Source: Pirellulimonas nuda
GTDB taxonomy: Bacteria > Planctomycetota > Planctomycetia > Pirellulales > Lacipirellulaceae
NCBI RefSeq assembly: GCF_007750855.1
Contig: NZ_CP036291.1
Location: forward strand, 3,162,001-3,226,000
DNA: 64,000 nt
Direction: 5' to 3'
Shown: piece after piece, positions 6,447-64,000 of the stretch
Numbering within the stretch: position 1 is the first letter of the stretch
How the letters are laid out: every line of letters starts with the position of its first letter
The notes under the pieces: generated by a model
What the model was told of the DNA's origin: nothing
Seen by the model: the letters and a program-made list of their open reading frames with translations, nothing else
Database searches by the model: none
Position numbers and translations under genes: made by a program

Positions 6447-6588
6447 CTGCCGCGGTTCTCCGAATTCCGCAGGCCGAAAACAGGGCGTTCTTGCGGTCGC
6501 CGGCGTCGGAGGGGCTGGGTACGGTAGGCGTAGACAGCTCGCCAGAGGCCTCACGTCCTCCTCCATTCCTCTCCGCTGCCGGTACCCT

Positions 6589-10809: not shown

Positions 10810-12863
10810 CCGGTTGGCGTCGACGCGTAGCCCAACGCCGCGTCGCTGGGCTCGTAGAGCCGCTGCGTCCAGGCCAGGTGAAACGCGGCCGGGTCGCTCA
10901 GCAGCAGCCGCTTCTCGTCGGGGGTCAGCGAGCCCGGGTCGCGCTCGGCTAGGTGCGCAAGCGCCGTGGGGTTCGAGTGCTTGGCGGTCGGCGAGGCGGT
11001 GAGGATCGACTCGTGGACCATCGCCAGCCCGGGGCTCGCCAGGACGCTCGAAAAGGGGTCGTCGCCCAGCTCGTCGGTTTGGCGGCGGTGCTCGGGGATC
11101 AACCTGCGCTGCGCGCCAAGCACGGCCTCGGGCGAGAGTTCGCTCGGCGTCAGCAGCAAGCCCCAGCGTCGCAGCGCCCTGCCGACCCGCCCGCTGCTCA
11201 GCACGACCGAGATCAGCGGCGCCAGCGCCGCGCCGATCAGCACCGGCGATAGCCACGGCAACGCGCTGGGCCGCGTGAGGACGATCACGAGCGTCCCCAC
11301 AATGCCGATGGCTGCCTGCCAGCCGTGCGCCGCCAGCGCGTCGCGCAGCGAGAGGTCGTGCCCGTCCCGCGTCTGGGCGTTCCAGCCGACCATCCGCCCC
11401 ATCAGGGTGGTGAGCACGAAGCGGGTGTGGAACAGCATCATGATCGGCGCCGCGAAGACCGAGACGACCGTCTCCAGCACCGCGCTGGAGGCCAGCGCGA
11501 GCCAGCCACCGAAGCCCGCGGCGCCCTCCCTCCCGGCGGCCAGCGCCAACAGCGCCCACAGCCTGGGGAGCAGCAGCATCGCCATCACCACGCCAAACAC
11601 CACCAGGCAACTCGGCCCGGAGGGTTCGGAAGCCCCATCAAAATCGGCCGAACTCATCAGCCCCAGCACGATCGCCAGCAGCCACAGCGGCGACGACAGG
11701 TAGGCCAGCACGCCGAACATGAAGTGCAGCCGCGACATCGGCATGATGCCGCTCTCGAAGATCAGCCGGGTGTGCTGCAGGTTCCCCTGGCACCAGCGGC
11801 GGTCGCGTTGGGCGTAGTCGGGTAGCGCCGGGGGGCACTCCTCGTAGCTCCCGCCGAGGTCCGAGGCCAGTCGCACCTTGTACCCCGCGCGGCGCATCAG
11901 CGCCGCTTCCACAAAATCGTGGCTGAGCACCTCGCCCCCCAGCGGCTTGGCGCCCGGCAGGTCCGATAGACCGCAGTGACGCATAAAGGCCTCGGTGCGC
12001 AGGATCGCGTTGTGCCCCCAGTAGTTGCCGGCGTCGCCGGCCCACGCCTCGAACGCCCGCGCCAGCAGGGGCCCGTAGGCCGCGGCGGCGAACTGCTGGC
12101 ACCGCGCCCAGAACGAGTCTTGGTTCACGGGGATCGGGACGGTCTGAAGCAGCCCGAGGCCCGGGTCGGCCTCCATGCGTCGCAGCATCTCGAGCATCAC
12201 CTCGCCCGTCATCACGCTGTCGGCGTCCAGCACCAACAGGTAGTGGTAGCCGGCGCCCCACCGCTCGCAGAAGTCGCGCAGATTGCCCGCCTTCTTCCCG
12301 GCGTTGTCCTCGCGGTGCCGGTAGAACACGCGGCAGTGGGTGTCGGGCCGGGCGTCTGCCCGCTGCCAGGCGAACTCTTCCTGCAGCCAGACGTCGGGGT
12401 CGGTCGTGTCGCTCAGCACAAAGAAGTCGAACCGCCCGTCCTCGCCCGTCTCGCCCAGCGAGTGGCGCATCGCCTCGATCCCGGCGAACACCCGCGCCAC
12501 GCTCTCGTTGTAGATCGGCATCAGCACGGCGACGCGGGCGCCGACGTCGAGACGCGTCGCGGAGCTCTGCGGCCCGCGGCGGCGGAAGAGCGCCAGCCCG
12601 AGACCCAGGGTCGCCATCCAGAAAGAAAACGCGATCAGCGCGGTCAGCATCCACGTGAGGATCACCAGCAGCGATTCGACGAGCGTCCAGCCGTCGGCGC
12701 CCAGGCGGCTGCCGAGTGCATTGGCGATCCACCAACTCGACGCCAACGCCGCCACGGCGATCGTTGCGCGGATGGTCGCCGTTTTCCACATGGCAGCACG
12801 CCCTCCCCTATCGCTAGCGGCGGATCTCGTGGTCCCGCTCGACCCGGCTTCTGTCGGGCTCAT
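10806..12863 (-). CDS. mdoH: glucans biosynthesis glucosyltransferase H
   Basis: A 685-aa multi-pass inner-membrane family-2 glycosyltransferase that builds the beta-1,2-glucan backbone of osmoregulated periplasmic glucans from UDP-glucose. Visible features are two N-terminal membrane segments (residues 25-95), the GT2 core with LVLDADSVMTGE near residue 210, the acceptor-site motif QRDRRWCQGNLQH near 355, and several C-terminal membrane helices. It is shorter than E. coli MdoH (847 aa), mainly at the N-terminus. Its ATG overlaps the stop of the preceding gene as ATGA, so it is likely translated by coupling. The stop overlaps the stop of the convergent CotH-type gene. Confidence 0.92.
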   Translation of the reverse strand: MSPTEAGSSGTTRSAASDRGGRAAMWKTATIRATIAVAALASSWWIANALGSRLGADGWTLVESLLVILTWMLTALIAFSFWMATLGLGLALFRRRGPQSSATRLDVGARVAVLMPIYNESVARVFAGIEAMRHSLGETGEDGRFDFFVLSDTTDPDVWLQEEFAWQRADARPDTHCRVFYRHREDNAGKKAGNLRDFCERWGAGYHYLLVLDADSVMTGEVMLEMLRRMEADPGLGLLQTVPIPVNQDSFWARCQQFAAAAYGPLLARAFEAWAGDAGNYWGHNAILRTEAFMRHCGLSDLPGAKPLGGEVLSHDFVEAALMRRAGYKVRLASDLGGSYEECPPALPDYAQRDRRWCQGNLQHTRLIFESGIMPMSRLHFMFGVLAYLSSPLWLLAIVLGLMSSADFDGASEPSGPSCLVVFGVVMAMLLLPRLWALLALAAGREGAAGFGGWLALASSAVLETVVSVFAAPIMMLFHTRFVLTTLMGRMVGWNAQTRDGHDLSLRDALAAHGWQAAIGIVGTLVIVLTRPSALPWLSPVLIGAALAPLISVVLSSGRVGRALRRWGLLLTPSELSPEAVLGAQRRLIPEHRRQTDELGDDPFSSVLASPGLAMVHESILTASPTAKHSNPTALAHLAERDPGSLTPDEKRLLLSDPAAFHLAWTQRLYEPSDAALGYASTPTG

Positions 12864-13453
12864 AGCAGCCCGAAGCAGCTACGGACCGACCGGAACGCGA
12901 ACCCGAGCGCCACCCGCGGCGGCCGCACCGCGTGGGCGAGCCGGGGAAGGATCGGCTGCGCCAAGGGTTGCGGCGGCATCGACCCGCGCGATTCGGGGGG
13001 CGCTACCGGCCGCGCCGTGTCGGCGAACCGGTGCAACCAGCCCTCTTCGATGCTCCCCAACGATTCCAAGAACGCCGGTTCGGTCGCCAATAGCTGGCAG
13101 AACCTCTGCACGACGTGGGGCCGCGTTGCGTCGCCGCCGATCCGGGCAGCGATCGCGTCGATCTGGTTGGTGATCCATTGCTGGGTCAAGCAGGCGCCCC
13201 GCCGTGCGTAGGATTGAAGCGACGGCGCTTCGCCTGCGTCGCACGGCGCCGTGGCCGGGGCGTTCCACGCCTGCAGCGACCGGACCACCCGCGCTGCGGC
13301 GCGACCGGCCGCCGCGCGGTCCTGCACTCCCCAGGCCAGCAGGACGCCGGTGGATGCAGACTCTGCTGCCTCGCGCGCCCGCTGCTGGAGCGCGTAGCGA
13401 CGCACCTCTGCCGAGGGTTCGATGATAAACTCGTGGTTCTTTAAGGCGTCCAT
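12860..13453 (-). CDS. unknown protein encoded between mdoG and mdoH
   Basis: A 197-aa, mostly helical, soluble protein with no signal peptide and no family I recognise. It starts at the ATG at 13453, seven bases after a ggag, inside the last codons of mdoG; a GTG at 13465 is also in frame. Its stop overlaps the mdoH ATG. The middle has QSYARRGACLTQQWITNQIDAIAARIGG and HVVQRFCQLLATEPAFLESLGSIEEGWLHRF, and the end is Pro-rich and basic. The tight double overlap argues that it works with the glucan synthase, perhaps as a cytoplasmic regulator or accessory subunit. E. coli mdoGH has no such gene. Confidence 0.75.
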   Translation of the reverse strand: MDALKNHEFIIEPSAEVRRYALQQRAREAAESASTGVLLAWGVQDRAAAGRAAARVVRSLQAWNAPATAPCDAGEAPSLQSYARRGACLTQQWITNQIDAIAARIGGDATRPHVVQRFCQLLATEPAFLESLGSIEEGWLHRFADTARPVAPPESRGSMPPQPLAQPILPRLAHAVRPPRVALGFAFRSVRSCFGLL

Positions 13454-14976
13454 GTGTAGCTCCACGTTTCGGATACGGGCCGGCCGTCGGCGTGAATCTC
13501 GGCGGTAGCGGTCACCGGCGAGGCCGGGTCGTGGTGCAGGTCGAACGACAGCACCCAGTTGTTGTCGGGTTGTTTCTCGAACCGCACTTCCCCCACGCTG
13601 CCACCTTCGACGTTGATGACTGGCTCGACGTTGTTTCGTTCAAGGTTGGGGAGCTCGTCGCCACCCTCGAGCACCAAGAAGTAGCTCGATCCTTGCTGTG
13701 TCGCTCGCGGGATCGTATGCGCAAATCTCGCTTGGTAGTTCCCCTCGGGCTCACGCTGCCCGAAGGACAACTCGTAGCGAAAGTCGTGCCGCTGGCCCCC
13801 GCGGACGGGCTCGGCGGGGACCCAGTAGGCGCCGATATTGTCGAAGCCCTCGTGCGTGCTGCTGAGCTCCAACAGCTCAACCCGGCCGGCGCCCCAGTCC
13901 CCCCGCGGCTTCACCCACACATTGGGCCGCAGGTGATAGCGGGCCTCGTTGTCGGCGTAGTTCTCGTACTCGCGGTCGCGCTGCATGAGTCCGAATCCGG
14001 CCAACGCGTCGGTCGGGAACGAGCTGACCACGGTCCGGTCCGCCCGCACCAGCGGCCGCCACGTCCAACGTCCGGACGCCTCGATCAGCAGCCCGTCGGA
14101 GTCGTGCACCTCCGGACGGGGGTCGTCGGAAGGTTTGCTCCAGGCCTCCCACATCCACATGCTGGTGATGGGCGCCACGCCTACCTTCTGCACGCCGTGG
14201 CGGAAGAAGAGCGCGCAGGTCACGGCGACCCGGGTCGTTTCCCCCGGGAACACCTCGAACTGGTACGCGCCGGCCACCGCCGGCCCGTCCAACAGCGCCC
14301 AGACGGTGATCTTGTTCTTGTCTTCGGGACGCTCGATCCAGAATTCAATGAAACGCGGGAACTCTTCGGGGCTGCCGAGCCCGACGTCGATCGCAAGCCC
14401 GCGGACCGACGCGCCGTACCAATCAAACGCGCCCAGCACGCGGAAGTAGCTGGCCCCCAGGAAGCTGAGGAACTCTTGCGGGTTGGGGCGGTCAAGCAGC
14501 CGGGTCAACAGACGGAAGCCCGCGTAGGCGCCGCCGGGCGTGTCGGCCAGCGGCGCCGCGCTGCCGCGGTACTGGAACAGAGCGGGGTCGAAAGGGATCT
14601 GCTCGGTCGATTGCCCTTCCGCTTCGTCACGGCCCACCTCGTTCAGCCGCTTGCCGAACGGGAAGAGGAACCCCGCGTGGTGGGGCTCGAGCCAGAACGG
14701 CAGGTCCTCGTCACGCCACCTGGCCTTCTCGAAGCGTGGCGAGATCATCCGGTAACGGTCGTAGGTGAGCTGCGCAAACGCCGGCGGCGCCGCGACGGGG
14801 GGCTGGTGCTTGCTGCCGGCCATCTTCTCCGCACGCGCCACCAGGCGGTCGAACGAGAACGGCTGCTCGGCGTCGGGCGGGCTCGCGGTGGCGAGCTCCG
14901 CGGCGACGTCCAAGGGACGCGTCGTCGTCAGCACGCCTGTCGCTAGGCATAGAGCGATGGTGCGGTAAGTCAGCAA
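13441..14976 (-). CDS. mdoG: periplasmic glucan biosynthesis protein G/D
   Basis: A 511-aa OpgG/OpgD family protein, the same length as E. coli MdoG. It has an N-terminal signal peptide and family sequences such as FAQLTYDRYRMI, RFEKARWRDEDLPFWLEPHHAGFLFPF, GASYFRVLGAFDWYGASVRGLAID, EEFPRFIEFWIERP and SSFPTDALAGFGLMQRDREYENYADNEARYHLRPNVWVKP. The family acts in the periplasm on nascent beta-1,2-glucan; E. coli OpgD has been shown to be an endo-beta-1,2-glucanase (GH186). The start is a TTG at 14976, because no in-frame ATG precedes the conserved region. It heads the mdoG-unknown-mdoH operon. Confidence 0.92.
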   Translation of the reverse strand: MLTYRTIALCLATGVLTTTRPLDVAAELATASPPDAEQPFSFDRLVARAEKMAGSKHQPPVAAPPAFAQLTYDRYRMISPRFEKARWRDEDLPFWLEPHHAGFLFPFGKRLNEVGRDEAEGQSTEQIPFDPALFQYRGSAAPLADTPGGAYAGFRLLTRLLDRPNPQEFLSFLGASYFRVLGAFDWYGASVRGLAIDVGLGSPEEFPRFIEFWIERPEDKNKITVWALLDGPAVAGAYQFEVFPGETTRVAVTCALFFRHGVQKVGVAPITSMWMWEAWSKPSDDPRPEVHDSDGLLIEASGRWTWRPLVRADRTVVSSFPTDALAGFGLMQRDREYENYADNEARYHLRPNVWVKPRGDWGAGRVELLELSSTHEGFDNIGAYWVPAEPVRGGQRHDFRYELSFGQREPEGNYQARFAHTIPRATQQGSSYFLVLEGGDELPNLERNNVEPVINVEGGSVGEVRFEKQPDNNWVLSFDLHHDPASPVTATAEIHADGRPVSETWSYTWTP

Positions 14977-15442
14977 AGGGGAACCTTGTCGGGGGATAGA
15001 CGGATCGAGCGGGACGCGGCCCCGCTGGTGGGAACTCCGAGGAATGCAAAACGCGTGCCGCGCCGCCGACCGCTAGCCGAACCCCCCTCAAACTCAGCGG
15101 AATCCGCCGATCCGTTCCTGATTCTTCACGCAACCTTCATCGGGCCGTCATCGCAGGAGATAGAAGACGCGCTCCCGGGCCTGGCGGAGGCGCCGGCTGG
15201 ACGCGCGGCGACCACCGGACGGCTGCGCTGCCGCCATCTGGCCGGCAGCGAACGCAAGGAAAGCAGGCGTGGCGCCTAGATTCGCCGCAGTCCCGTGCAA
15301 CGTACGTGCGGCGTGCGGCTCCGGAGAAAAGCTCTTGGGTGCAGAATTCCCGCAACTATAGTTGGTACTGGCGGCGGGCTGGCGGTTGCTCTCGCCGATT
15401 GTCGGCGACGATCCTTCTCCCTCATTCGCGAACGCCCCACGA
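14977..15442. other. divergent intergenic region
   Basis: This 466-bp stretch separates mdoG (minus) from the PEP-CTERM gene (plus), so it must hold promoters for both. No gene is supported here. The only feature I can point to is a 12-bp palindrome at 15353-15364. Confidence 0.6.
15353..15364. promoter_or_regulatory. 12-bp palindrome upstream of PEP-CTERM gene
   Basis: The sequence caactatagttg is a perfect palindrome 78 bp before the ATG at 15443, in an otherwise GC-rich spacer. It holds a TATAGT that could serve as a -10 element on the plus strand. It may be an operator or a promoter; the assignment is tentative. Confidence 0.35.
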
Positions 15443-16330
15443 ATGCAGCGACCCGTAGCAGCCGCCGTCTTGGTCCACGCGCTCGCCGGCGCCCTGCCCG
15501 TTGCGTCACTGGCCGCGTTCGACGTGCCCGGCGTGACGGTCGCAGACCCGGGGCTTGGTCAGAACACGCTCCGCACGCGCGGGACGCTTGTCGACGGCAG
15601 CGGCTTTAACGCCGGCGCAAGGACGCACCTCGCCGCGCCAGACGCGGGCACCATGTGGCGTTCGGCGGCGACGGTGGTTTCGGAAGACCAGCCGGTGATC
15701 CTCGACTTTGCCCTGAACGGACTGTACGACCTGGCGTCGATCGACATCTGGAACTTCAATCACTTCAGCCCGGCGCAGAACCACGGCGTGGGGAGGCTCG
15801 ATATTTTTACTTCGTCCGACGGGCTGGCGTACGTCAGCGCGATTCCGACCCTCGTGCTTCATCCAGGTTCGGGCCTCGACAGCTACGCCGGCCAGTCGAT
15901 CGACGTGCTGGCGTTCTCAACGAAGTTTGTCCGCTTTCGAATCGTCTCGGGCGTTGCGGGTGGACAAGGGGTGGGGTTGTCCGAGGTCCGCTTCGTCGCC
16001 TTCGGCGAACACACGCCGGCCGTGGCCCCCGGCGACTACAACGGCAACGGGTTGGTAGACGCCGCCGACTACACCCTCTTCCGCGACAACCTGGGAGGGG
16101 ACGCCGCTGCCGCCTTTGCCGCGGGGAGCCGCGACCCGCTGGGATCGGGGGGCGTGAATCAGAGCGACTACGCCTTCTGGTCTCAGAACTTCGGCCATGC
16201 CGGCGGCGTCGCTGCGGTGTCGCCGGCCAACCCAGCCGTGCCAGAAACCTGTGCGTGGGCCACGATGCTGCTCGCCGGGGCCGCGGCCCTGGTGCGGCCC
16301 GCGCTGCGGGCCCGCTCGAGAGCGGTCTAG
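15443..16330 (+). CDS. dockerin-like, PEP-CTERM-type secreted protein
   Basis: A 295-aa exported protein. It has a signal peptide at residues 1-25 and then a beta-rich domain at about 35-190 (ILDFALNGLYDLASIDIWNFN, FVRFRIVSGVAGGQGVGLSEVRFVAFG) that resembles discoidin-like jelly-roll modules. A dockerin-like EF-hand pair follows (DYNGNGLVDAADYTLFRDNLGG, then NQSDYAFWSQNFG). The tail VPETCAWATMLLAGAAALV plus an Arg-rich end looks like a PEP-CTERM sorting signal, with PET in place of PEP. Such tails are processed by exosortase and target proteins to the surface. I chose the ATG at 15443, which gives a clean signal peptide. Confidence 0.8.
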   Translation: MQRPVAAAVLVHALAGALPVASLAAFDVPGVTVADPGLGQNTLRTRGTLVDGSGFNAGARTHLAAPDAGTMWRSAATVVSEDQPVILDFALNGLYDLASIDIWNFNHFSPAQNHGVGRLDIFTSSDGLAYVSAIPTLVLHPGSGLDSYAGQSIDVLAFSTKFVRFRIVSGVAGGQGVGLSEVRFVAFGEHTPAVAPGDYNGNGLVDAADYTLFRDNLGGDAAAAFAAGSRDPLGSGGVNQSDYAFWSQNFGHAGGVAAVSPANPAVPETCAWATMLLAGAAALVRPALRARSRAV

Positions 16331-50890: not shown

Positions 50891-52720
50891 CTAGCGTTCC
50901 GTTTGAGCTCCGGCGGCGGGCAGAGAAGGCTTCCCCTGGCCGTTGGCTACCGTCACGCGGATCGAATTGCTCACCCCTTGCCTGGAGAAGGCCTGCGCGG
51001 ACCGCGCCGCGAGCGGGTAGGCATCGTCCCATGAGTAGACCGAGATCCGGGCGGACCCCGGCTTGTGGGGGGTCAGCTCGCCGAACTTGTTGATCGACGC
51101 AACCGCCGGGTCGTCTGACTCCCAGATCACGTTGCGTCGCGTGGCGCTTGGCGGGGTCACACGGCATTGCAGCCGGCGGGTTTCGCCCGGCGCCGTGGAG
51201 AAGCCGCCGGAAGATATCTTCAGGCCCGCTACCGGGACGTAGGCGTTGGCGTCGATGATCGCCTGCAGCTCGTCGAAGGCGCCCTTCTGCTCTGCATCGA
51301 GCTCCGCCCTGTCGAGGCCGCTGCGATGGACGTGCGCCCAAGCAACCTTCACCTGCCGGTCTCCCGCCGTCTCTAGCGGATCGGTGCGGAGGTCGAAGAA
51401 CCGGCCCGTTGGGAAGTTGGCGTGGGGGGCGTAGCGCTTGAACCGCTTATTGAACGCGTACTCCATCACGATGGAGGGGTCGCTCCACTCGTTGTTGGCG
51501 TTGTACCAGGTGTAGATGTGCCGCCTGGGCTCGCCCGCGGCCCCGGTCGCCTGCGGCCAGAAGCTGACGCCGTCGATGGCGCCGGGGTCGTCGATCGCGA
51601 TCCCGGCTGCTTCACACAGCGTCGGGTAGATGTCCGTGACGTCGATCAGCCCCGCGTAGCTCCGGTACCGCGTCCCATCGGGCGCCGAAGGGATGACGCC
51701 CGGGTAGGAGAGTACCAGCGGGACGTGGAGCCCGTTGTCCTTGTTCCCCCCCTTCCCGCCGGGGTACTGCGTGCCGTCGGGCAAGACGTGGGTAAACGGC
51801 TCCTTGGTGCCGTTATCTCCCATGACGACGATCAGGGTATTCTCTCGCAGCCCGCACGCCTGGAGCTTGTCGACCACGTTGCCGATCAGCTTGTCTGCGT
51901 AGGCGAGCATGTCTGGGAAGTAGCGGCGATCGTCGCCGACCACGCCGTCCCGGTTACGCTTCTGCTGGGTGAAGTTGTCGAACACCGAGTGAGGCTCGGT
52001 GTCGGGCGTCGGCTTGTGCTCGTCGTGCACCAGCAGCATGGGGTAGTACAAGAAGAACGGCTCGTCCTGGTGCTCGTCGATAAAGTCCACGGCGAGGCGG
52101 TTGCAGATGTCGGGGCCGTACCAGCGCCGGCCCGTTTGGGGATCGACGTCGCTGCGGCCCGTGTAGTCGTGGACCTGTCCGTTGATCACCAGGGTTGGAT
52201 TGATGTAGCGTTGCTCTTCGCCCACCACGTCGAAGCATCCGAACTCGTCCCAGCCGAACTCGTAGATGTAGTCCTTGGCCGGGATCTCTCGCGTCCCACG
52301 CGTCTGCTTCCACTTGCCGAACATGCCCGTGGCGTAGCCGGCTCGCTTGAAGACGTCGCCGAACGTGATCTGCGAGGCGTGAAGCGACTTCGGCCGTACG
52401 AAGTTGCGGCTGTTGTACTGACCCGTCATCAAGGCGACGCGGGTCGCCTCGCACAGCGGGTAGACGAACGCGTTGTCACAACGCAGCCCCTTGGAGGCGA
52501 TCTGGTCGATCCGTGGTGTGGAAAAGGCCTGATCGCGGAAACGGCCCGACTGCTCGCTCAAGCGGTCGGCGCCGTAGGCGGTGACTCCGTAGAGGCCCAG
52601 GTCGTCGATGAGGATCAGCACAACGTTCGGCCGCGCCGCGTCCGCGGGGCTTGCCCAGACCAGCATCGGGAGCAACACAGCAGAGAACCGTGCGAGGATG
52701 GCCGCAGTACGAGTGGGCAC
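50891..52720 (-). CDS. secreted sulfatase with C-terminal Ig-like domain
   Basis: A 609-aa S1-type sulfatase. Signal peptide 1-28; metal ligands Asp39-Asp40 in ILIDDLG; the formylglycine motif is C90-E-A-T-R94, which fits C-x-A/P-x-R; the second metal motif is VVMGDNGTKEPFT, and GGKGGNKDNGLHVPLVLSYPG follows. Residues 535-600 look like a bacterial Ig-like (BIG2) domain (VIWESDDPAVASINKFGELTPHKPGSA). It should remove sulfate esters from polysaccharide sugars outside the cytoplasm, after formylglycine activation. It lies downstream of a KDG-kinase-like gene. Confidence 0.9.
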   Translation of the reverse strand: MPTRTAAILARFSAVLLPMLVWASPADAARPNVVLILIDDLGLYGVTAYGADRLSEQSGRFRDQAFSTPRIDQIASKGLRCDNAFVYPLCEATRVALMTGQYNSRNFVRPKSLHASQITFGDVFKRAGYATGMFGKWKQTRGTREIPAKDYIYEFGWDEFGCFDVVGEEQRYINPTLVINGQVHDYTGRSDVDPQTGRRWYGPDICNRLAVDFIDEHQDEPFFLYYPMLLVHDEHKPTPDTEPHSVFDNFTQQKRNRDGVVGDDRRYFPDMLAYADKLIGNVVDKLQACGLRENTLIVVMGDNGTKEPFTHVLPDGTQYPGGKGGNKDNGLHVPLVLSYPGVIPSAPDGTRYRSYAGLIDVTDIYPTLCEAAGIAIDDPGAIDGVSFWPQATGAAGEPRRHIYTWYNANNEWSDPSIVMEYAFNKRFKRYAPHANFPTGRFFDLRTDPLETAGDRQVKVAWAHVHRSGLDRAELDAEQKGAFDELQAIIDANAYVPVAGLKISSGGFSTAPGETRRLQCRVTPPSATRRNVIWESDDPAVASINKFGELTPHKPGSARISVYSWDDAYPLAARSAQAFSRQGVSNSIRVTVANGQGKPSLPAAGAQTER

Positions 52721-55903: not shown

Positions 55904-56509
55904 CTACTGGATGTTCGCCTCAAGCGCCGCGACGGCCGCCTCTTCGTTCCCCATGCGGATCGCTTCGACAATCGCTACGTGCTCGAGGTGGCTTTCCATC
56001 ATGCAGCTATGCCGGCTGTAGTGGAGCATCATCCGGCTCACGATCGGCAGCCAGATGGCTACCAGGTCTGGGTTCCCAGAGAGCTCAACGTTCAGGCGGT
56101 GCAGCGCCATGTCTTGCTCGACGAACGTCCCAAGGTCTTCGCTTTCGCACGCGGCCCGCATGCGATCCATCGTCGCTTGGAAGCGTTCGACGGTCTGGTC
56201 GTCCTTCGTTGGGAACCACTTGCGTAGGGCGAACACCTCGATCTCGCGTCGCAAGCCAACCAGCAGCTCCTGCGTCTCTTCGTGGACCGCGGCGACGCGG
56301 ACGCCGCAGTTCGGCTTTGCGATGAGGAGGCCTTCTTGCGTCAGTTGCAGCAAGGCGTCGCGGATCGGGGCGCGGCTCACGTGGTACTGCTGTGCCAGAG
56401 CCTGCTCTCGCAGGTTTGTGCCCTCGGCGAGCCGTCCCGCAAGGACATCGGCCCGGATCCGATCAGCCACTTGTTCGCGGATCGTCCGCGCGACTGGGAG
56501 CTCCGTCAT
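55904..56509 (-). CDS. GntR-family (FCD) transcriptional regulator
   Basis: A 201-aa FadR-subfamily regulator. N-terminal winged helix (TIREQVADRIRADVLAGRLAEGTNLREQALAQQYHVSRAPIRDALLQLTQEGLL) and C-terminal FCD effector domain (FVEQDMALHRLNVELSGNPDLVAIWLPIVSRMMLHYSRH) with D/H metal ligands. Such regulators respond to sugar acids or other carboxylates and usually repress. Its position before aldA, the kinase and the sulfatase suggests control of that set. Confidence 0.9.
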   Translation of the reverse strand: MTELPVARTIREQVADRIRADVLAGRLAEGTNLREQALAQQYHVSRAPIRDALLQLTQEGLLIAKPNCGVRVAAVHEETQELLVGLRREIEVFALRKWFPTKDDQTVERFQATMDRMRAACESEDLGTFVEQDMALHRLNVELSGNPDLVAIWLPIVSRMMLHYSRHSCMMESHLEHVAIVEAIRMGNEEAAVAALEANIQ

Positions 56510-56990: not shown

Positions 56991-57908
56991 GTGGCGGGGG
57001 CGGCCCTATCCCTGCTCCACTGGCGGCTGTGCCGCTACCGGTTCATGAACGAGTTTCCCTACATCACCGAGTACGTCAACGGCGTCTTCGCCCGCGAGCG
57101 GAAGCAGTGGGACTTCATCCTGCTGCGGCCGCTGTTGTTGGTGATGTACTTTGTGGTGCGGTTCGTCAGCTTCCCGCTGAAGTTTGTGCTGCACCGCTGG
57201 CCGCTGGGGTTCGAGGCGTACCTCATCGACTGCTGCATGGCGTTTGGCATGAAGTACCTGGCGAGGGCGGACGCGGCAGAGCTGTTCATGCGCCACGTCC
57301 AGATCGAGCCGCTGCTGTACCAGCACATCCTCCGGCAGCAAGACGCCCCGGTCCAAAGCAGCGGGGTCAAGCTGAACACCATCGACGGCGATTTCAGCGT
57401 CGACAGCATCCGGACGGTCTTGGACAACCGCTTGACCGTGGGGCACGACCGGCTCTCGTATGAGATCATCGACCGGTTTGACAAGCAGGCGTTCCTGCAG
57501 AACCTCGACTACATCCGCACGACCAGGCCCCGCGACCACGAAGAGCTGAGCAAGGCGGTGCTGGAAGAGAACCGCAGGCACTCGCTCCAACTGCTCGGGC
57601 CGACGAACGTCGTGATGCTCATCGTGATGGCCATCACGGTGCTGGGCGATCTCGACACTACCGTCACGGCGCTCAACTCGTTCGGTTCCGACTCGGTGCT
57701 GCTGTGGTGCGTGAAGCGGATCTACGCGGGCGACGAGGAGGTGCAGGTAGACCTCGACTTCTTCATGCAGGAGGTCGCCAACCGCGGGCACTACCACAGC
57801 AGCGCGTTCTTCTCGAACCCGAGCCAGTACCTCTACTACCATATCGTGTTCGACGAAGTGGTTTACGACCTGCTCCGCAACACTCCGCCAGCCGCCGGCG
57901 ACGCATGA
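56991..57908 (+). CDS. unknown membrane-associated protein preceding KAS III gene
   Basis: A 305-aa protein of a family I do not recognise. Hydrophobic stretches occur at about residues 44-70 (FILLRPLLLVMYFVVRFVSFPLKFVL) and 205-220 (NVVMLIVMAITVLG). Other notable parts are YLIDCCMAFGMKYLARADAAELFMRHVQIEPLLYQHIL and DLDFFMQEVANRGHYHSSAFFSNPSQYLYYHIVFDEVVYDLL. The start is a GTG at 56991; an ATG at 57045 is the alternative. The stop overlaps the ATG of the KAS III-like gene as ATGA, so the two products should work in one pathway. Confidence 0.7.
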   Translation: MAGAALSLLHWRLCRYRFMNEFPYITEYVNGVFARERKQWDFILLRPLLLVMYFVVRFVSFPLKFVLHRWPLGFEAYLIDCCMAFGMKYLARADAAELFMRHVQIEPLLYQHILRQQDAPVQSSGVKLNTIDGDFSVDSIRTVLDNRLTVGHDRLSYEIIDRFDKQAFLQNLDYIRTTRPRDHEELSKAVLEENRRHSLQLLGPTNVVMLIVMAITVLGDLDTTVTALNSFGSDSVLLWCVKRIYAGDEEVQVDLDFFMQEVANRGHYHSSAFFSNPSQYLYYHIVFDEVVYDLLRNTPPAAGDA

Positions 57909-58999
57909 CGCCCAGCGCCTGCTACATCACCGGCGCCGCGTCGTACCTGCCGGGCGATCCGGTTGAGAACGACGCGATCCAGCGCTTCCTGGGGGTCCTC
58001 GCCGGCGAAGACGACGTGCGCAGCAGGGTCCTGGCGATGAACGGCATCCGCCGCAGGTTCTACGCCCAAGACGCCCAGCAACGCGCCACGCACGACGTCT
58101 ACGGGATCGGCGCCGAGGCGGTCGCGCGGCTCGCGGCGCTGGCGCCCTGCGGTGCGGCGACATTCTTGTCGGGGGGCACGACCTTTGCGCCGCTCGCAGC
58201 GCCCGGGTTCGCTTCGATCTTGCATGCGCGGCTCAGCGAACGCGGCCTGCTGTGTGGCCCCGCGGAGATCAGCTCCAACGCGGGGATCTGCTCCTCCGCC
58301 GCCACGGCGCTGGTGGGGGCGATGCGGGCCGTGGCGAGCGGCCAGCACCGCGTCGCCCTGTGCGTGGGCGCCGAGCACGCGTCCGAGGTGCTCAAGTCGA
58401 CCGCGATCCGGCCCGTCGACGATCGGGACCAGCACGCGAACGTGCGGAACAGCCGCTGGTTTATGTCGGTGTTCCTCCGCTTCATGCTGTCGGACGGCGC
58501 CGGCGCGATGCTGCTGGAAGACCGGCCGCGGCCGGGGGGGATCTCGCTGCGGGTCGACTGGACCCACTCCCGGTCGTTCGCCCACGAGGCGCCGCTGTGC
58601 ATGACGCTCGAGAGCCGCACCGCGCTGCTCAGTCAGGACGTGTCGATCTTGTCCAGGCACCTCTTCCCGGCCGCGGACGCCTTCCTCGAAGACGCCTTTG
58701 CGCGCCACGACGACTCGGTCGGCGCCCACTCGCTGGTGCTGCCGCACATGTCGTCGTTCTTCTTCCGGCGGAAGATGGAGCGGGTGATCGCCAAGCAATG
58801 TCCCGATCCCCGCAACCCGACCCCCTACTGGACCAACCTCGCCACGGCCGGCAATACCGGGGCGGCCAGCATCTTTGTCATGCTGGACGAGTACCTACGC
58901 GAAGGGACGATCGCGCCGGGCGACCGGCTGCTGCTGTTTGTGCCGGAGTCGGGGCAGTTCAACTTTGTGCTCATCAGCCTGACCGCCGTAGCGTCATGA
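57905..58999 (+). CDS. beta-ketoacyl-ACP synthase III-like (thiolase-fold) enzyme
   Basis: A 364-aa thiolase-superfamily protein of the KAS III type. The catalytic triad is visible as Cys129 (NAGICSSAATAL), His281 (VLPHMSSFFF) and Asn317 (LATAGNTGAASIFVMLDEY), so it should be an active Claisen-condensing enzyme. The N-terminus (YITGAASYLPGDPVENDAIQRFLG) and the RRFYA segment fit the family. The substrate is unknown. It overlaps both neighbours by 4 nt (ATGA). Confidence 0.85.
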   Translation: MTPSACYITGAASYLPGDPVENDAIQRFLGVLAGEDDVRSRVLAMNGIRRRFYAQDAQQRATHDVYGIGAEAVARLAALAPCGAATFLSGGTTFAPLAAPGFASILHARLSERGLLCGPAEISSNAGICSSAATALVGAMRAVASGQHRVALCVGAEHASEVLKSTAIRPVDDRDQHANVRNSRWFMSVFLRFMLSDGAGAMLLEDRPRPGGISLRVDWTHSRSFAHEAPLCMTLESRTALLSQDVSILSRHLFPAADAFLEDAFARHDDSVGAHSLVLPHMSSFFFRRKMERVIAKQCPDPRNPTPYWTNLATAGNTGAASIFVMLDEYLREGTIAPGDRLLLFVPESGQFNFVLISLTAVAS

Positions 59000-60612
59000 C
59001 CACCCCCCCCGCGGCCGGCACACGGCGTCTATTGATCATCGGGGCGGGGAGCAGCGGGCTCATCACGCTAAAGTACGCCTGCGAGCTGCTCACCGGTTGG
59101 GAGATCGAGTGCTTCGAGCAGTCCGACGGCGTCACCGGCGCCTGGGGGAACCCCTACGAAGGGTTCGTCTCGACCTCGACCAAGTACACCACCCAGTTCG
59201 CCAGCTACCGGCGCTTCGACGCGTCGGTTTGCTCGGACGGCGGCGCCAGCCGCAGCGAGTTCTTCCGAGACGGCGAGTACGGCGAGTACCTGACGCGCTT
59301 CGCAGATCATTTCGGCCTGCGCGGGCGCGTCGCCCACGGCCGCCGGGTGCTTGCCCTGGCCCGCGCGGGGGGCAGCGCTGGCTGGGAGGTCACCTACGCG
59401 GCCCCCGACGCGGCCGAGCCCCTTGTCCGCCGGTTCGACGCGGTCGTGATCTGCACGGGGCTCGTGGCGGAGCCCAGGTCGTTGGGCGACCACCCCCGTG
59501 TGGCCAGCCTGCCGACCGTGATGTCGTCCGACGGTCTCCGTGAGATTACCGGCAAGACCGTCGTTGTTGTCGGCGGCGGCGAGATGGCGACCGACTTCGC
59601 CAATCGGTTGGCCCAGCCCGGGCTAGGGAACCGCGTTTTCCTCTCGCTCCGCTCCGGCATCAGGGTCAGCCCCCGCTACCACCCCATCCGCGGGGTGCCG
59701 TCCGACTTCCTGCGCAACCGGCTGATGCTGTCGATCCACGTCGATATCCGCAACTGGATCGGCGCCCGCTTCGTCGCGGCCCGGATCCGCTACCGGCGGT
59801 GGTTCGAGCGTGTGTTCCCCCCGCGTGCCGACCCGCAGGCCAGCGGCGCGCCGGCGCCCACCGGTGCGGGCGTCGCGAGCGATTGGTCCAAGCGGCTGAA
59901 CCGGCGGGCCGAACGCGGCTTGTTCGACATGTTCCACAACAAGAGCGACGACTTCCTGACGGCCATCGCCGAAGGGCGGCTCGACGTGGTCGGGGCGCCG
60001 CTGGACGCGTCCTTCACCACCTTCGGCGAGTTCGACGCGGAAGGGACGCGCGAGATCGCGCCGGACGTCGTTGTGCCCGCGGTCGGTTTTCGTTCGCGGT
60101 TGGGGCGGCTGAGCGACGGGGCGATCGAGCTGCGGGACTTCTACCTGGGCTGCCGCCACATCGAGCACGACGACCTGTTTCTAGTCGGCTTCGCCCGTCC
60201 CGTGATCGGCAACATCCCTTCGATCAGCGAGATCCAGGCCCGCTACGTTGTGCTCTCGCTGGCCGGCCAGGTCGCCCGGCCCAGCGACATCGTCCAACGC
60301 CACGCCGTGGACGCCGCCGAGCGGCGCCGACGCTTCGCCGGCGTCGACACGAACCTGATCTACCCCGTCGAGATGTTCCCCTACTGCGATCGGCTCGCCC
60401 GTGAGATGGGGGTCGCACCGCGTCCCAGGACGCTCCGGGAGAGGTGGGCCGTGCTCACCGCGCCGGCGACTACGCTGGACTACGCCTGCTTCCAGGGAGC
60501 CAGGGACGCGGGCGCCACGCCCCCGACTTACCTCCCGGCGTCGCTCATCTTCTTGCTCTTCCTGCTCAAGCCGCTCGACTGGGCGTACCGCGCGATCGTG
60601 CGTCAACGCTGA
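58996..60612 (+). CDS. flavoprotein monooxygenase-like oxidoreductase
   Basis: A 538-aa FMO/Baeyer-Villiger-like protein. The first dinucleotide fold is LLIIGAGSSGLITLKYACE (GxGxxG), followed by GAWGNPYEGFVSTSTKYTTQFASY. The second fold is VVVVGGGEMATDFANRLAQ for NADPH. The FAD-side motif PDVVVPAVGFRSRLG is present. A C-terminal hydrophobic helix (LPASLIFLLFLLKPLDWAY) may anchor it to the membrane. The ATG overlaps the stop of the KAS III-like gene. It ends 10 bp into the convergent P450 gene. Confidence 0.83.
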   Translation: MTTPPAAGTRRLLIIGAGSSGLITLKYACELLTGWEIECFEQSDGVTGAWGNPYEGFVSTSTKYTTQFASYRRFDASVCSDGGASRSEFFRDGEYGEYLTRFADHFGLRGRVAHGRRVLALARAGGSAGWEVTYAAPDAAEPLVRRFDAVVICTGLVAEPRSLGDHPRVASLPTVMSSDGLREITGKTVVVVGGGEMATDFANRLAQPGLGNRVFLSLRSGIRVSPRYHPIRGVPSDFLRNRLMLSIHVDIRNWIGARFVAARIRYRRWFERVFPPRADPQASGAPAPTGAGVASDWSKRLNRRAERGLFDMFHNKSDDFLTAIAEGRLDVVGAPLDASFTTFGEFDAEGTREIAPDVVVPAVGFRSRLGRLSDGAIELRDFYLGCRHIEHDDLFLVGFARPVIGNIPSISEIQARYVVLSLAGQVARPSDIVQRHAVDAAERRRRFAGVDTNLIYPVEMFPYCDRLAREMGVAPRPRTLRERWAVLTAPATTLDYACFQGARDAGATPPTYLPASLIFLLFLLKPLDWAYRAIVRQR

Positions 60613-61961
60613 ATCGCCTTCACCCGCAGCCCGTGCTTGAGCCGCATCGTCAGCAGGGCAGACGCCTCGTGGCGGCCCTGCCCATCGATCTGGAGCCGGA
60701 AACGCTGCGCCAGGGTCGCCAACAACACGAGCAGCTCGAGCGTGGCAAAATGGACCCCGACGCATACCCGCGGCCCCCCGCCGAACGGCACGTAGGCGTG
60801 CGTCGACCGCCGGTTCTCCTCGGCGCCGGGGCGGAACCGTTCTGGATCGAACCTGCTCGGGTCCGCCCAGAAGTCCTTGTGCCGGTGCAGGGCGTGGCGG
60901 CTGAACGCGACCATCGCGCCGGCGGGGAGCGTTACGCCGCCGAGCTCGACGTCGCGCGTCACGTTGCGGTTCTCGAACCAGAACGGCGGGTGGAGGCGGA
61001 GCGTTTCGTCGATCACCATGCGGGCGTAGGTCAGCCGGGGGGCGTCCTCCACGCGCATCTCGCGGCCGCCAAGCACCGTGTCCAACTCCTCGTGCAGGCG
61101 GCGTTCTACCAGCGGGTTCTTCGCTAGCTCGTACCAAATCCAGGTCAAAGCGACCGAAGAGGTCTCGTGACCTCCCACGATCATGCCCAGCACCTCGTCG
61201 CGGACCTCGGCATCGGTGAGCCGCGGCCGACCATCGGCGGGGTCGTCGGCCAACAGCAGCGACAGCAGGTCTTTGCCGGACGCTTCGGCGCGGCGTTGGT
61301 CGATGGTGGTTTGGATGAAGCGGTGAAACTCGGCCAGCGTTGTTCGCAGGCGCCGGTTGAGCCGTGAAGGGAACCACGCGCTGCGCACCACCGGCAGCGG
61401 CGCCTTCGAGCTGTAGTGGTCGATCACGTGCGTCCAGCGGCGGATCGGTTCACGGGCTTCGTCAAACGCGTCCTGGAACAGCGCGCGTCCGACGATCTCG
61501 AGGGTGAGCTCGTCCATCTGGTCCGCCACATCGAACGCGGCGCCGTCGCGGCTGCGTGACTCCCACTGATGCGCGACGCGGTGGGCGGCCCCGAGCATCG
61601 GTTGAAGGTACGCCTCGACCCGTGCCGGACCCATCAACTGCTGAATGGCGGCCCGGCGCTGCTTCCACTGGTCCCCCTCGGCGACCACCAGCCCGCTGCC
61701 GAAGGCCCGGCGGAAGCGGTCGTACAGCGGGCTGCGTTTGTCAAAGGCGTCGTGGGTTTGTTGCAGCACCTGCTTCACCAACGCCGGGTGGTTGATCAGG
61801 TAAAACCCGACCACGCCGCGGTAGTGCACAAAATCGCCGTACTCGGCGATCAGCTTGTCGAACAGCCGCTCGCGGCTGAACGCCAGCATCCAGACCCGGT
61901 AGCTCCACGGCGTCGACGCGAGGGCGCCGGAGAACTCGGCGGGGGGCTTGGAGGGGGTCAT
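60603..61961 (-). CDS. cytochrome P450
   Basis: A 452-aa P450 (bacterial class) with the oxygen-binding helix IVGGHETSSVALTW, the ExxR motif ETLRLHPPF, and the heme loop FGGGPRVCVG with Cys400. All P450 hallmarks are intact. The start is the ATG at 61961; a start at 62045 would add 28 residues of Ala/Pro-rich sequence. It runs opposite to the KAS III/FMO genes and its end overlaps the FMO gene by 10 bp, an end-to-end arrangement without a spacer. Electron-transfer partners are not in the window. Confidence 0.9.
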   Translation of the reverse strand: MTPSKPPAEFSGALASTPWSYRVWMLAFSRERLFDKLIAEYGDFVHYRGVVGFYLINHPALVKQVLQQTHDAFDKRSPLYDRFRRAFGSGLVVAEGDQWKQRRAAIQQLMGPARVEAYLQPMLGAAHRVAHQWESRSRDGAAFDVADQMDELTLEIVGRALFQDAFDEAREPIRRWTHVIDHYSSKAPLPVVRSAWFPSRLNRRLRTTLAEFHRFIQTTIDQRRAEASGKDLLSLLLADDPADGRPRLTDAEVRDEVLGMIVGGHETSSVALTWIWYELAKNPLVERRLHEELDTVLGGREMRVEDAPRLTYARMVIDETLRLHPPFWFENRNVTRDVELGGVTLPAGAMVAFSRHALHRHKDFWADPSRFDPERFRPGAEENRRSTHAYVPFGGGPRVCVGVHFATLELLVLLATLAQRFRLQIDGQGRHEASALLTMRLKHGLRVKAIQR

Positions 61962-62045
61962 CTGGGGTCCGGCTGCGGCGGTAACCACGATCGATCGCGG
62001 CGCTGGCCGAGAGTCGGCGCCGGTGGCGGCCGGCTTAGCCGCCAC

Positions 62046-62348: not shown

Positions 62349-64000
62349 TCAGCCGGCTTGGGGCCGGAGGACCGCCAACCAGTCTCCCCCGTCGTCTCCG
62401 GGCGGGTTGCCGATGGCCACCACGCTGCCGCCGTTGACGGCGCGGGTGGACCCCGGCTTCAAGGCGCCCCCGGCACGCGGGTTGAACCACTGGACCTCGA
62501 ACGCCCCCTTGGCGCCCGAGAGGTCGAGCTTGGTGTCGCCCGCATGCTTGCGGTAGACCAGGTAGAGCTCTCCGGGCTTGCAGAAGCAGTACGCGTCTTG
62601 GTCGGCCACCAACTCGTCGGCGCCGGTCATGTCCCAGAACGGGATCTTGTTGTCCTTGAAGAACGCGAGCGCGGTCCGGCATTGGTCCCACATCTTCGCA
62701 CGCACGCGGTAGTCTTGGCAGGTCAGGTCGCTGTGCGCGTGCTGGTAGCCGAAGTACCACTCGACTCCCGCGCCGCCGGCCATCAGGTTGCCCCACAGGG
62801 CGTTCTTGCGTGCGTTGTCGCGTGTCGGGTCCTCCTCGTCGGGGATCAACGCGTGCGACGCGTCCCCCGGCTCATCACAGGCCACCACCCAGGGCTTGCC
62901 CGCCTTGTCCGAACGACGCAGGTACTCCAGCGTGCGGCCGTGGACGCTGCGGAAGTCGGCGTTGCTGGTTTGCAGCGAGAAGCCGGTGAGGGCAGAGCCC
63001 GTGCCTGCGGCCGGGTCGTACTCTCCCAGCAGGTCGAAGTGGTTGTCGCCGTTGTGGATGACGATGTGGTGGTGGTAGGGGTCGTTCTCCCAGAAGTACC
63101 GCGCCCAGTCCTGCTTCTGCTTGGTGCTCACCTTGTGCCCCAGGCCTACCTCTTCGCCGAGGTTCCAGTTGAGCGCCAAGTGATGGGCGAACCGCGCGAT
63201 AAGCTCGCGGTAGTACAGCTTGCGCTGAGGCCCCAGTTGCCCGTTGTCCAGGATGTTGACGTTCTCGGCTTCCAGCGTTTTAAAGTGCAGGTACATCCCT
63301 AGTTTCGTCCCGTGGGAGAACACGGTCTCCCACTGGTCCATGCGGGAGCAGTCGATACGGTCGCGCTGGTCGTACTGAGTGTACGGGAAGACGTTGCGGT
63401 CGTCCCCTTCGATGTTGAGCGTCAAGAAGGAGAAGGCGTTTAGCCCTTTGGACGCCAGGTAGTTGATGGCGCCGATTAGCCCCTTGCCCTTGCCGTCCTG
63501 CCAAGTGGGATCGCCGGCCTTCCAATCCTTTACGTGGGGCGCCCAGTCCTTAATCAGGTTGTCCTTCTTGCCGTCCGTCTTGAAATCGCCGTCGAAGTCC
63601 TTGTAGGCGAGGAGGTTCTCTGGGGCGTCGACGCCGGCCTTGAGGAAGTACTCGTGGTTGCCCGCGAACTGCAGGTGGTGCTTGCCGACATAGTCCAGCC
63701 GCCCCTTGCCGCGGAAGTCGCGCCCCGATTTGTCGGTCTTGGCGACCTCGAAGGAGCCCTTGAGTCCGTCGAGCATGTTGACGGGCTTCCCTGCGTCGGC
63801 GGCGTCAGCGACGGCAACGCCCGGCCCCTGGCGGAACGACACCTCGTACGTCCACTTGCCGGCGTGGTCGGGCGCCAGATGGGCGCGCCACTTGTCGCCC
63901 TCGGTGGCCGAGGTGTTGCCGGCGTCGCCGTCGGCCGCAAAGTAGCCCGGCACAACGTAGGTCAGCCCCGATTCGGGGTGCCGGAACGTGACCTGAAGCC
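62349..64000 (-). CDS. DUF5060-domain secreted glycosidase-like protein, 5' end cut
   Basis: At least 550 aa are in the window; the start lies beyond position 64000. The first residues (VTFRHPESGLTYVVPGYFAADGD, then HLAPDHAGKWTYEVSFR) fit a DUF5060 domain. A TIM-barrel-like body follows (GLIGAINYLASKGLNAFSFLTLNIEGDDRNVFPY, HHLALNWNLGEEVGLG, PWVVACDEPGD, LMAGGAGVEWYFGY). The end (LYLVYRKHAGDTKLDLSGAKGAFEVQWFNPRAGG) resembles a collagen-binding-type C-terminal domain. It is probably a secreted polysaccharide-acting enzyme. Confidence 0.8.
   Translation of the reverse strand, partial: LQVTFRHPESGLTYVVPGYFAADGDAGNTSATEGDKWRAHLAPDHAGKWTYEVSFRQGPGVAVADAADAGKPVNMLDGLKGSFEVAKTDKSGRDFRGKGRLDYVGKHHLQFAGNHEYFLKAGVDAPENLLAYKDFDGDFKTDGKKDNLIKDWAPHVKDWKAGDPTWQDGKGKGLIGAINYLASKGLNAFSFLTLNIEGDDRNVFPYTQYDQRDRIDCSRMDQWETVFSHGTKLGMYLHFKTLEAENVNILDNGQLGPQRKLYYRELIARFAHHLALNWNLGEEVGLGHKVSTKQKQDWARYFWENDPYHHHIVIHNGDNHFDLLGEYDPAAGTGSALTGFSLQTSNADFRSVHGRTLEYLRRSDKAGKPWVVACDEPGDASHALIPDEEDPTRDNARKNALWGNLMAGGAGVEWYFGYQHAHSDLTCQDYRVRAKMWDQCRTALAFFKDNKIPFWDMTGADELVADQDAYCFCKPGELYLVYRKHAGDTKLDLSGAKGAFEVQWFNPRAGGALKPGSTRAVNGGSVVAIGNPPGDDGGDWLAVLRPQAG

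Follow-up and report, generated by a model that had tools for sequence, protein, structure and literature searches.

Positions 57045 to 62045 of a 64,000-nucleotide stretch of the Pirellulimonas nuda genome (hereafter, the window) hold a four-gene cassette which we read, at roughly even odds (about 0.5), as a compact lipid-biosynthesis operon. It would represent a variant of the StlD/DarB pathway in which a DUF6999 protein stands in the place of DarA, and the oxidation of a cyclic, membrane-bound dialkyl lipid falls to a flavoprotein resembling flavin-containing monooxygenases (FMO) and a cytochrome P450. The forward strand encodes a DUF6999-like, membrane-associated protein of 287 residues (gene 1; 57045..57908), a StlD/DarB-like ketosynthase of the ketoacyl synthase III (KAS III) superfamily with 364 residues (gene 2; 57905..58999), and an FMO-like flavoprotein of 538 residues (gene 3; 58996..60612). 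The P450 (gene 4; 60603..62045) lies on the reverse strand. An initial annotation had proposed a biosynthetic unit of a condensing enzyme, oxygenases and a partner protein at this site. Its layout is confirmed: the four open reading frames (ORFs), the ATGA stop/start overlaps joining gene 1 to the ketosynthase (57905..57908) and the ketosynthase to the FMO gene (58996..58999), and the 10-bp convergent overlap between the FMO and P450 ends (60603..60612) can all be read in the sequence. Its interpretation is partly supported, as discussed below.

We observed the proposed unit in 24 loci, comprising 19 found with the ketosynthase as seed (all metagenome assemblies), three found with gene 1, one from a search with the Pfam profile PF22523 (DUF6999), and the window itself. 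These loci span the Planctomycetota, Verrucomicrobiota, Chloroflexota and Rhodothermota, and include near-copies (L021/L022, as well as L015, L016, L018 and L019). The ketosynthase occurs in all 24 (in 19 by construction), the FMO gene in 23 and the DUF6999 gene in 22. The single FMO miss, L024, coincides with a contig end, and the two loci missing DUF6999, L009 and L025, begin at most 56 bases from one. Within each locus the trio lies on one strand, and the 4-nt overlap between ketosynthase and FMO recurs in 15 of the 23 loci holding both genes, the window included. The P450 was found in eight loci, convergent in the window, L007 and L008, and on the same strand in L011, L026, L048, L013 and L023. 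As it sits inside KAS-FMO-P450-DUF6999 operons in L026 and L048 (one strand, with gaps of at most 12 bases or 4-nt overlaps), we consider it tied to the operon. The P450 thus keeps the place it was first given in the cluster, if only as an accessory.

Pairwise distances of the three core proteins correlate strongly (r = 0.935, 0.937 and 0.956, with none of 2000 permutations as high in each case), shared organismal descent contributing to these values. This comparison used 18 of the 24 loci, leaving aside L020, L023 and L027 (partial ORFs) and L009, L024 and L025 (a gene missing). The retention of the gene set in 24 loci and the correlated distances together indicate linkage beyond chance. The initial annotation had conceded that scattering of the genes in relatives would speak against it; our neighbourhood search found them kept together, and we rejected the notion of chance neighbours. 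The cassette is nevertheless rare. Among 294 genomes of the window phylum, gene 1 had matches at E < 1e-100 in four, and the same four encode a ketosynthase at least 60% identical; a fifth gene-1 match, in G012, is fragmentary (27%) and contains five stops. Only the seed genome matched among 194 genomes of the L013 phylum (Verrucomicrobiota) and, likewise, among 201 of the L014 phylum (Chloroflexota). Such rare and scattered occurrence suggests that the cassette has spread by transfer or has often been lost.

The ketosynthase gene occurs once in the 6.6 Mb, single-contig window genome. Its product scores 252.7 bits against the StlD/DarB model NF005293, below the cut-off of 450, and is for this reason called StlD/DarB-like rather than a member of the family. 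Scores against FabH-type models are 38.8 bits (TIGR00747, below its cut-off of 292.1) and 55.6 bits. The best solved relative is StlD (PDB 5gk0, E 6.7e-45), and the named relatives nearest to it belong to the Planctomycetota (Pirellulaceae, Gimesia). The Cys/His/Asn triad, correctly noted at the outset, is invariant as C129/H281/N317 across 17 aligned ketosynthases; N317 (in GNTGAAS), and not N311, is presumably the FabH-type Asn. Many alignment columns are also invariant between the cassette and StlD/DarB-family ketosynthases. In trees, a branch with 100/100 support sets off 21 cassette ketosynthases when FabH is included, and again without it. The outgroups were L049 (FabH) and L051 (FabH-like), for which treekit issued a long-branch warning, and the partial sequences of L023, L024 and L025 were left out of the ketosynthase trees. 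Profile scores, the best solved relative and the trees all put the ketosynthase nearer to StlD/DarB than to FabH, in a clade of its own. A housekeeping role, the other outcome held to be damaging to the original proposal, was rejected on the profile scores, the tree position and the presence of a separate FabH in the window genome (L049, 323 bits), which falls far outside the cassette clade. The same genome also contains an open frame with two adjacent KAS III-like matches (L050 and L052; G000:C1:5885379-5887343).

Two papers (PMC3949708, PMC3992019) describe StlD and DarB as making 1,3-cyclohexanediones en route to resorcinols, with DarA as the aromatase, and a third (PMC4414361) presents cyclohexanediones as intermediates of the dialkylresorcinol pathway. 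Compared with the StlD/DarB and DarA systems for dialkylresorcinols, cyclohexanediones and flexirubins, the cassette shares the kinship of its ketosynthase, the triad, a dedicated partner gene and, presumably, the acyl precursors. However, its ketosynthase falls below the family cut-off, in its own clade, and is without a 23-column stretch; DUF6999 takes the place of DarA; the FMO and often the P450 are added; and no recurrent acyl carrier protein (ACP) or extra ketosynthase (KS) gene was seen beside it.

The exchange of DarA for DUF6999 appears to extend beyond the cassette. On a Pseudoalteromonas plasmid (pTHAF3_a), the gene for a StlD/DarB-like ketosynthase stands ahead of one annotated as an iron-containing redox enzyme and of a DUF6999 gene whose product scores 321.9 bits. 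In three further loci, L047, L055 and L056 (G778, G861 and G845), a 616-residue fusion protein, which joins a StlD/DarB-like ketosynthase to a haem-oxygenase-like iron enzyme, is encoded ahead of DUF6999. The fused iron domain is 37-38% identical to the Pseudoalteromonas iron enzyme; against Pfam Haem_oxygenas_2, L055 scored 28.1 bits, just under the cut-off of 28.9. The Pseudoalteromonas ketosynthase shares 50-52% identity with those of the three fusions, and each of the four about 33% with that of the window. Cassette and iron-enzyme loci alike thus string together a StlD/DarB-like ketosynthase, DUF6999 and an oxidative enzyme, the last being an iron enzyme (fused in three) in the latter and the FMO and P450 in the former. 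No match to the window FMO or P450 was found in the four loci, and no described product for them was found in the literature listings searched. A fatty-acid-hydroxylase-family gene precedes the fusion (PF04116 in L047, with homologues in L055 and L056).

By comparison, a gene which we label DarA-type, because it neighbours DarB and gives faint flavodoxin-fold signals below the cut-off, adjoins the ketosynthase in L033 (a Streptomyces plasmid) and in L068, L069 and L070 (G283, G293 and G036; window phylum). The ketosynthases of these three planctomycetes are 32-35% identical to that of the window; two of them (L068 and L070) were scored, and both exceed the StlD/DarB cut-off. On a ketosynthase tree built without the FabH outgroup and rooted at its midpoint, the DUF6999-versus-DarA label changes once, the plasmid DarB rows L034 and L035 being unlabelled as neither gene is annotated beside them. 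These observations suggest two types of StlD/DarB-like ketosynthase, distinguished by their partner. A 321-residue neighbour in Streptomyces was tried as a DUF6999 candidate and rejected; it resembles DarA-type proteins. This locus (L033, Streptomyces sp. NBC_00008 plasmid, 7703-16141) holds an ACP, the StlD/DarB-like ketosynthase, the DarA-type protein, a FAD monooxygenase, SCP2, KS, P450, a second ACP and FabG. KS genes and ACP-like genes (the latter recognised by eye) also occur in L068 and L070.

The same data bear on whether the cassette might serve ordinary dialkylresorcinol synthesis, with a diverged DarB as its ketosynthase and the resorcinol finished by a DarA-type aromatase whose gene lies elsewhere. 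The shared superfamily would fit, and PMC4982196 reports a single antiSMASH 'resorcinol' cluster in the planctomycete strain LF1. We nonetheless regard this as very unlikely. A DarA-type profile built from four proteins, three of them from the DarB planctomycetes, found no such gene in the 17 cassette genomes searched (several being incomplete metagenome assemblies, and the genomes of the other seven loci lying outside the search), while the same profile recovered it in all three DarB planctomycetes, as query rows, and independently in two of the three ketosynthase-fusion genomes. BLASTP likewise found no DarA-type match in the cassette loci. The neighbourhoods of the DarB planctomycetes also differ from that of the cassette, with the DarA-type gene present in all three and the KS and ACP-like genes in two. 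For the 17 genomes searched, a supply of DarA from elsewhere in the genome was accordingly rejected. No paper mentioning both 'Planctomycetota' and 'dialkylresorcinol' was found among open-licence articles in PubMed Central (PMC).

The third gene product scores 68.1 bits against PF00743 (cut-off 22). Its AlphaFold2 model (mean predicted local distance difference test, pLDDT, 82.6) ends in a long C-terminal helix at residues 515-537, and in VIA it resembles ancestral FMO1 (7al4; Z 32.2, root-mean-square deviation 2.9, 450 residues aligned over model range 9-527, 22% identity), as well as FMO5 and the LbmA oxygenase, among others. Both nucleotide-binding glycine motifs (GAGSSG and GGGEMA) are kept. 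It thus shares with the membrane FMOs (ancestral FMO1/2/5) the fold and the C-terminal helix, and differs from them in its 22% identity, in a conserved block of its own, RVSPRYHPIRGVPSDFLRNRL, and in the motif FxGxxxHxxx[YFW], which we take to be the FMO fingerprint and which it does not carry; for this last reason it is named FMO-like. The P450 scores 285 bits against PF00067 and contains FGGGPRVCVG, which we take to be the haem-Cys motif of these enzymes. In L027 (G181:C1, about 6191-9875), the FMO gene is broken after some 70 codons by an insertion encoding what by eye is a transposase-like protein, the adjoining ketosynthase being intact, making this a natural FMO-minus strain.

The missing fingerprint and the conserved RVSPRYHPIRGVPSDFLRNRL block leave some room for a flavin dehydrogenase, which would aromatise or desaturate the ring and so replace DarA in lieu of DUF6999; that DarA-type proteins are themselves weakly flavodoxin-like, below cut-off, could be taken in the same sense. 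We find this doubtful: the model keeps the fold of true FMOs across 450 residues, and the four clear DUF6999-ketosynthase loci, where an iron enzyme takes its place, have no match to this FMO, leaving DUF6999 as the constant partner. The resemblance of the model to FMO5 and LbmA may also be cited for a non-carbocyclic product, such as an alpha-pyrone, a head-to-head beta-keto acid or a methyl ketone made in the manner of PpyS or OleA and then oxidised by the FMO and P450, for instance in a Baeyer-Villiger reaction. Head-to-head condensation is the chemistry of OleA-type enzymes. The ketosynthase-like PpyS makes pyrones, according to PMC4414361. This, too, is unlikely, given the many columns that the cassette enzymes share invariantly with StlD/DarB rows, in a comparison made without a PpyS sequence. 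Moreover, the ketosynthase scores 22.7 bits against NF006720, which we take to be the model covering OleA-like enzymes, as against the 252.7 bits for StlD/DarB.

Under the reading we prefer, a variant StlD/DarB pathway, we infer the chemistry of each step, the product and the role of DUF6999 from the gene complement. The ketosynthase would, most likely on account of its StlD/DarB kinship, join two acyl thioesters from primary fatty-acid synthesis into a ring; the outcome would be a cyclic 1,3-dione with two alkyl chains, or the corresponding carboxylate. DUF6999, a membrane protein in place of the flavodoxin-like DarA aromatase, may then process or channel the product of the ketosynthase. As it is the constant partner while the oxidising enzymes vary, its most likely task is to act on the immediate ketosynthase product, or to channel it, at the step that classically belongs to DarA. 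Finally, the membrane-anchored FMO-like flavoprotein, joined by the P450 where present, would oxidise the hydrophobic product at the membrane, a location that fits the hydrophobic stretches of gene 1 and the C-terminal helix of the FMO-like protein. If correct, this supplies a hypothetical role for DUF6999, a family without assigned function, and points to an oxidised lipid, not yet described, in Planctomycetota and other phyla.

A reading by eye of the 25 ORF clusters found most widely in L001-L025, where some flanks are short, brought up no exporter, receptor, regulator, ACP or acyl-activating enzyme; smaller clusters and loci L026-L028 and L048 fall outside this reading. Within these limits, the lack of such recurrent neighbours favours a cell-bound lipid over a secreted signal or antibiotic. 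The remaining recurrent clusters were antisense ORFs, a sulfatase-like gene in three loci, and neighbours common to the Opitutae loci, which by eye are alanyl-tRNA synthetase-like, NAD kinase-like and unnamed secreted proteins. The initial annotation, which had remarked on the lack of ACP or polyketide synthase modules adjoining the cassette, was right in this, and its lipid-like product made from acyl precursors agrees with the StlD/DarB kinship; the 'small signalling product' it offered as an option did not find support. A diffusible signal akin to the dialkylresorcinols and cyclohexanediones of Photorhabdus, which PMC4414361 describes as signals that PauR senses, thus seems most improbable here. 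A divergent GntR/FCD gene nearby, at 55904-56509, precedes genes for an aldehyde dehydrogenase and a PfkB kinase and does not belong to the 25 clusters.

A broader proposal, which we offer tentatively, would make DUF6999 a hitherto unrecognised membrane metalloenzyme family, acting directly on what StlD/DarB-like ketosynthases produce and defining a second major branch of their pathway. Interchangeable oxidation modules (the FMO and P450, or a haem-oxygenase-like iron enzyme that may even be fused to the ketosynthase) would then lead to an undescribed class of dialkyl membrane lipids, oxygenated and either cyclic or quinone-like, in bacteria scattered across several phyla. Eight residues of gene 1, R83, H84, H134, D135, D216, H249, H266 and E271, are identical in an alignment of 14 cassette and four clear DUF6999 proteins. 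In the AlphaFold2 model, which is all-helical (pLDDT 72; predicted template-modelling score, pTM, 0.73), most of these eight lie on four helices, and together they plausibly resemble a putative metal site. The hydrophobic stretches span about residues 23-49 and 180-210. Haem-oxygenase-fold chains (PolF, TenA and BesC) appeared in the Foldseek list for gene 1 only at E > 1, too weakly to be used.

Several observations weigh against the interpretation of the cassette given here. Firstly, the DUF6999 kinship of gene 1, at which the profile search advised for its product arrived, is marginal: PF22523 gives 28.1 bits over most of the profile against a cut-off of 27 (27.5 bits in a 392-genome search). 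Direct comparison with the Pseudoalteromonas DUF6999 was not significant (hhalign probability 1.7), BLASTP of gene 1 in the four other DUF6999 loci returned no DUF6999 match at 1e-3, and PF22523 had no match in the cassette genome G181. The profile detects the cassette clade poorly, finding three among 392 genomes; it also matches Caulobacter vibrioides (Pseudomonadota). Secondly, the gene 1 model has no significant fold match, so that its metal site stays putative: Foldseek gave none at E <= 0.001, and the best VIA match was the DpHF18 filament at Z 4.7. Thirdly, the ketosynthase does not reach the StlD/DarB cut-off, and the F.G...H fingerprint is absent from all 14 FMO-like rows. Fourthly, the P450 is missing from 16 of the 24 loci, some of them with short flanks, and L020, L023 and L027 are broken or badly assembled. 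Lastly, two of the three genomes with the ketosynthase-iron enzyme fusion carry a DarA-type gene elsewhere, on other contigs. Searches of plasmids for further DUF6999 proteins returned Pseudoalteromonas only, gene 1 itself had no plasmid match, and no paper naming DUF6999 or PF22523 was found in open-licence PMC.

Two gene starts merit revision. A 305-residue first protein had been called from 56991, and that frame exists; its homologues, however, mostly align from residue 19 of gene 1, several having their own first Met there, so the ATG at 57045 is the likely start (287 residues) and 56991 is probably too early. Alignments of seven P450 homologues to the window ORF begin at residues 31-64, for which reason Met29 (61961) may be a likelier start than the GTG at 62045. 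An Rfam scan of the window found nothing at gathering score, and a promoter scan gave two weak sites against 0.6 expected, which were not used. The flank holding the GntR/FCD regulator, aldehyde dehydrogenase and PfkB kinase also contains a sulfatase, with a Big_2 domain, at 50891-52720. On the other flank, 62349-63953 encodes a DUF5060-like, collagen-binding-like protein. The functions of the genes on both flanks indicate carbohydrate metabolism rather than a part in the cassette pathway.

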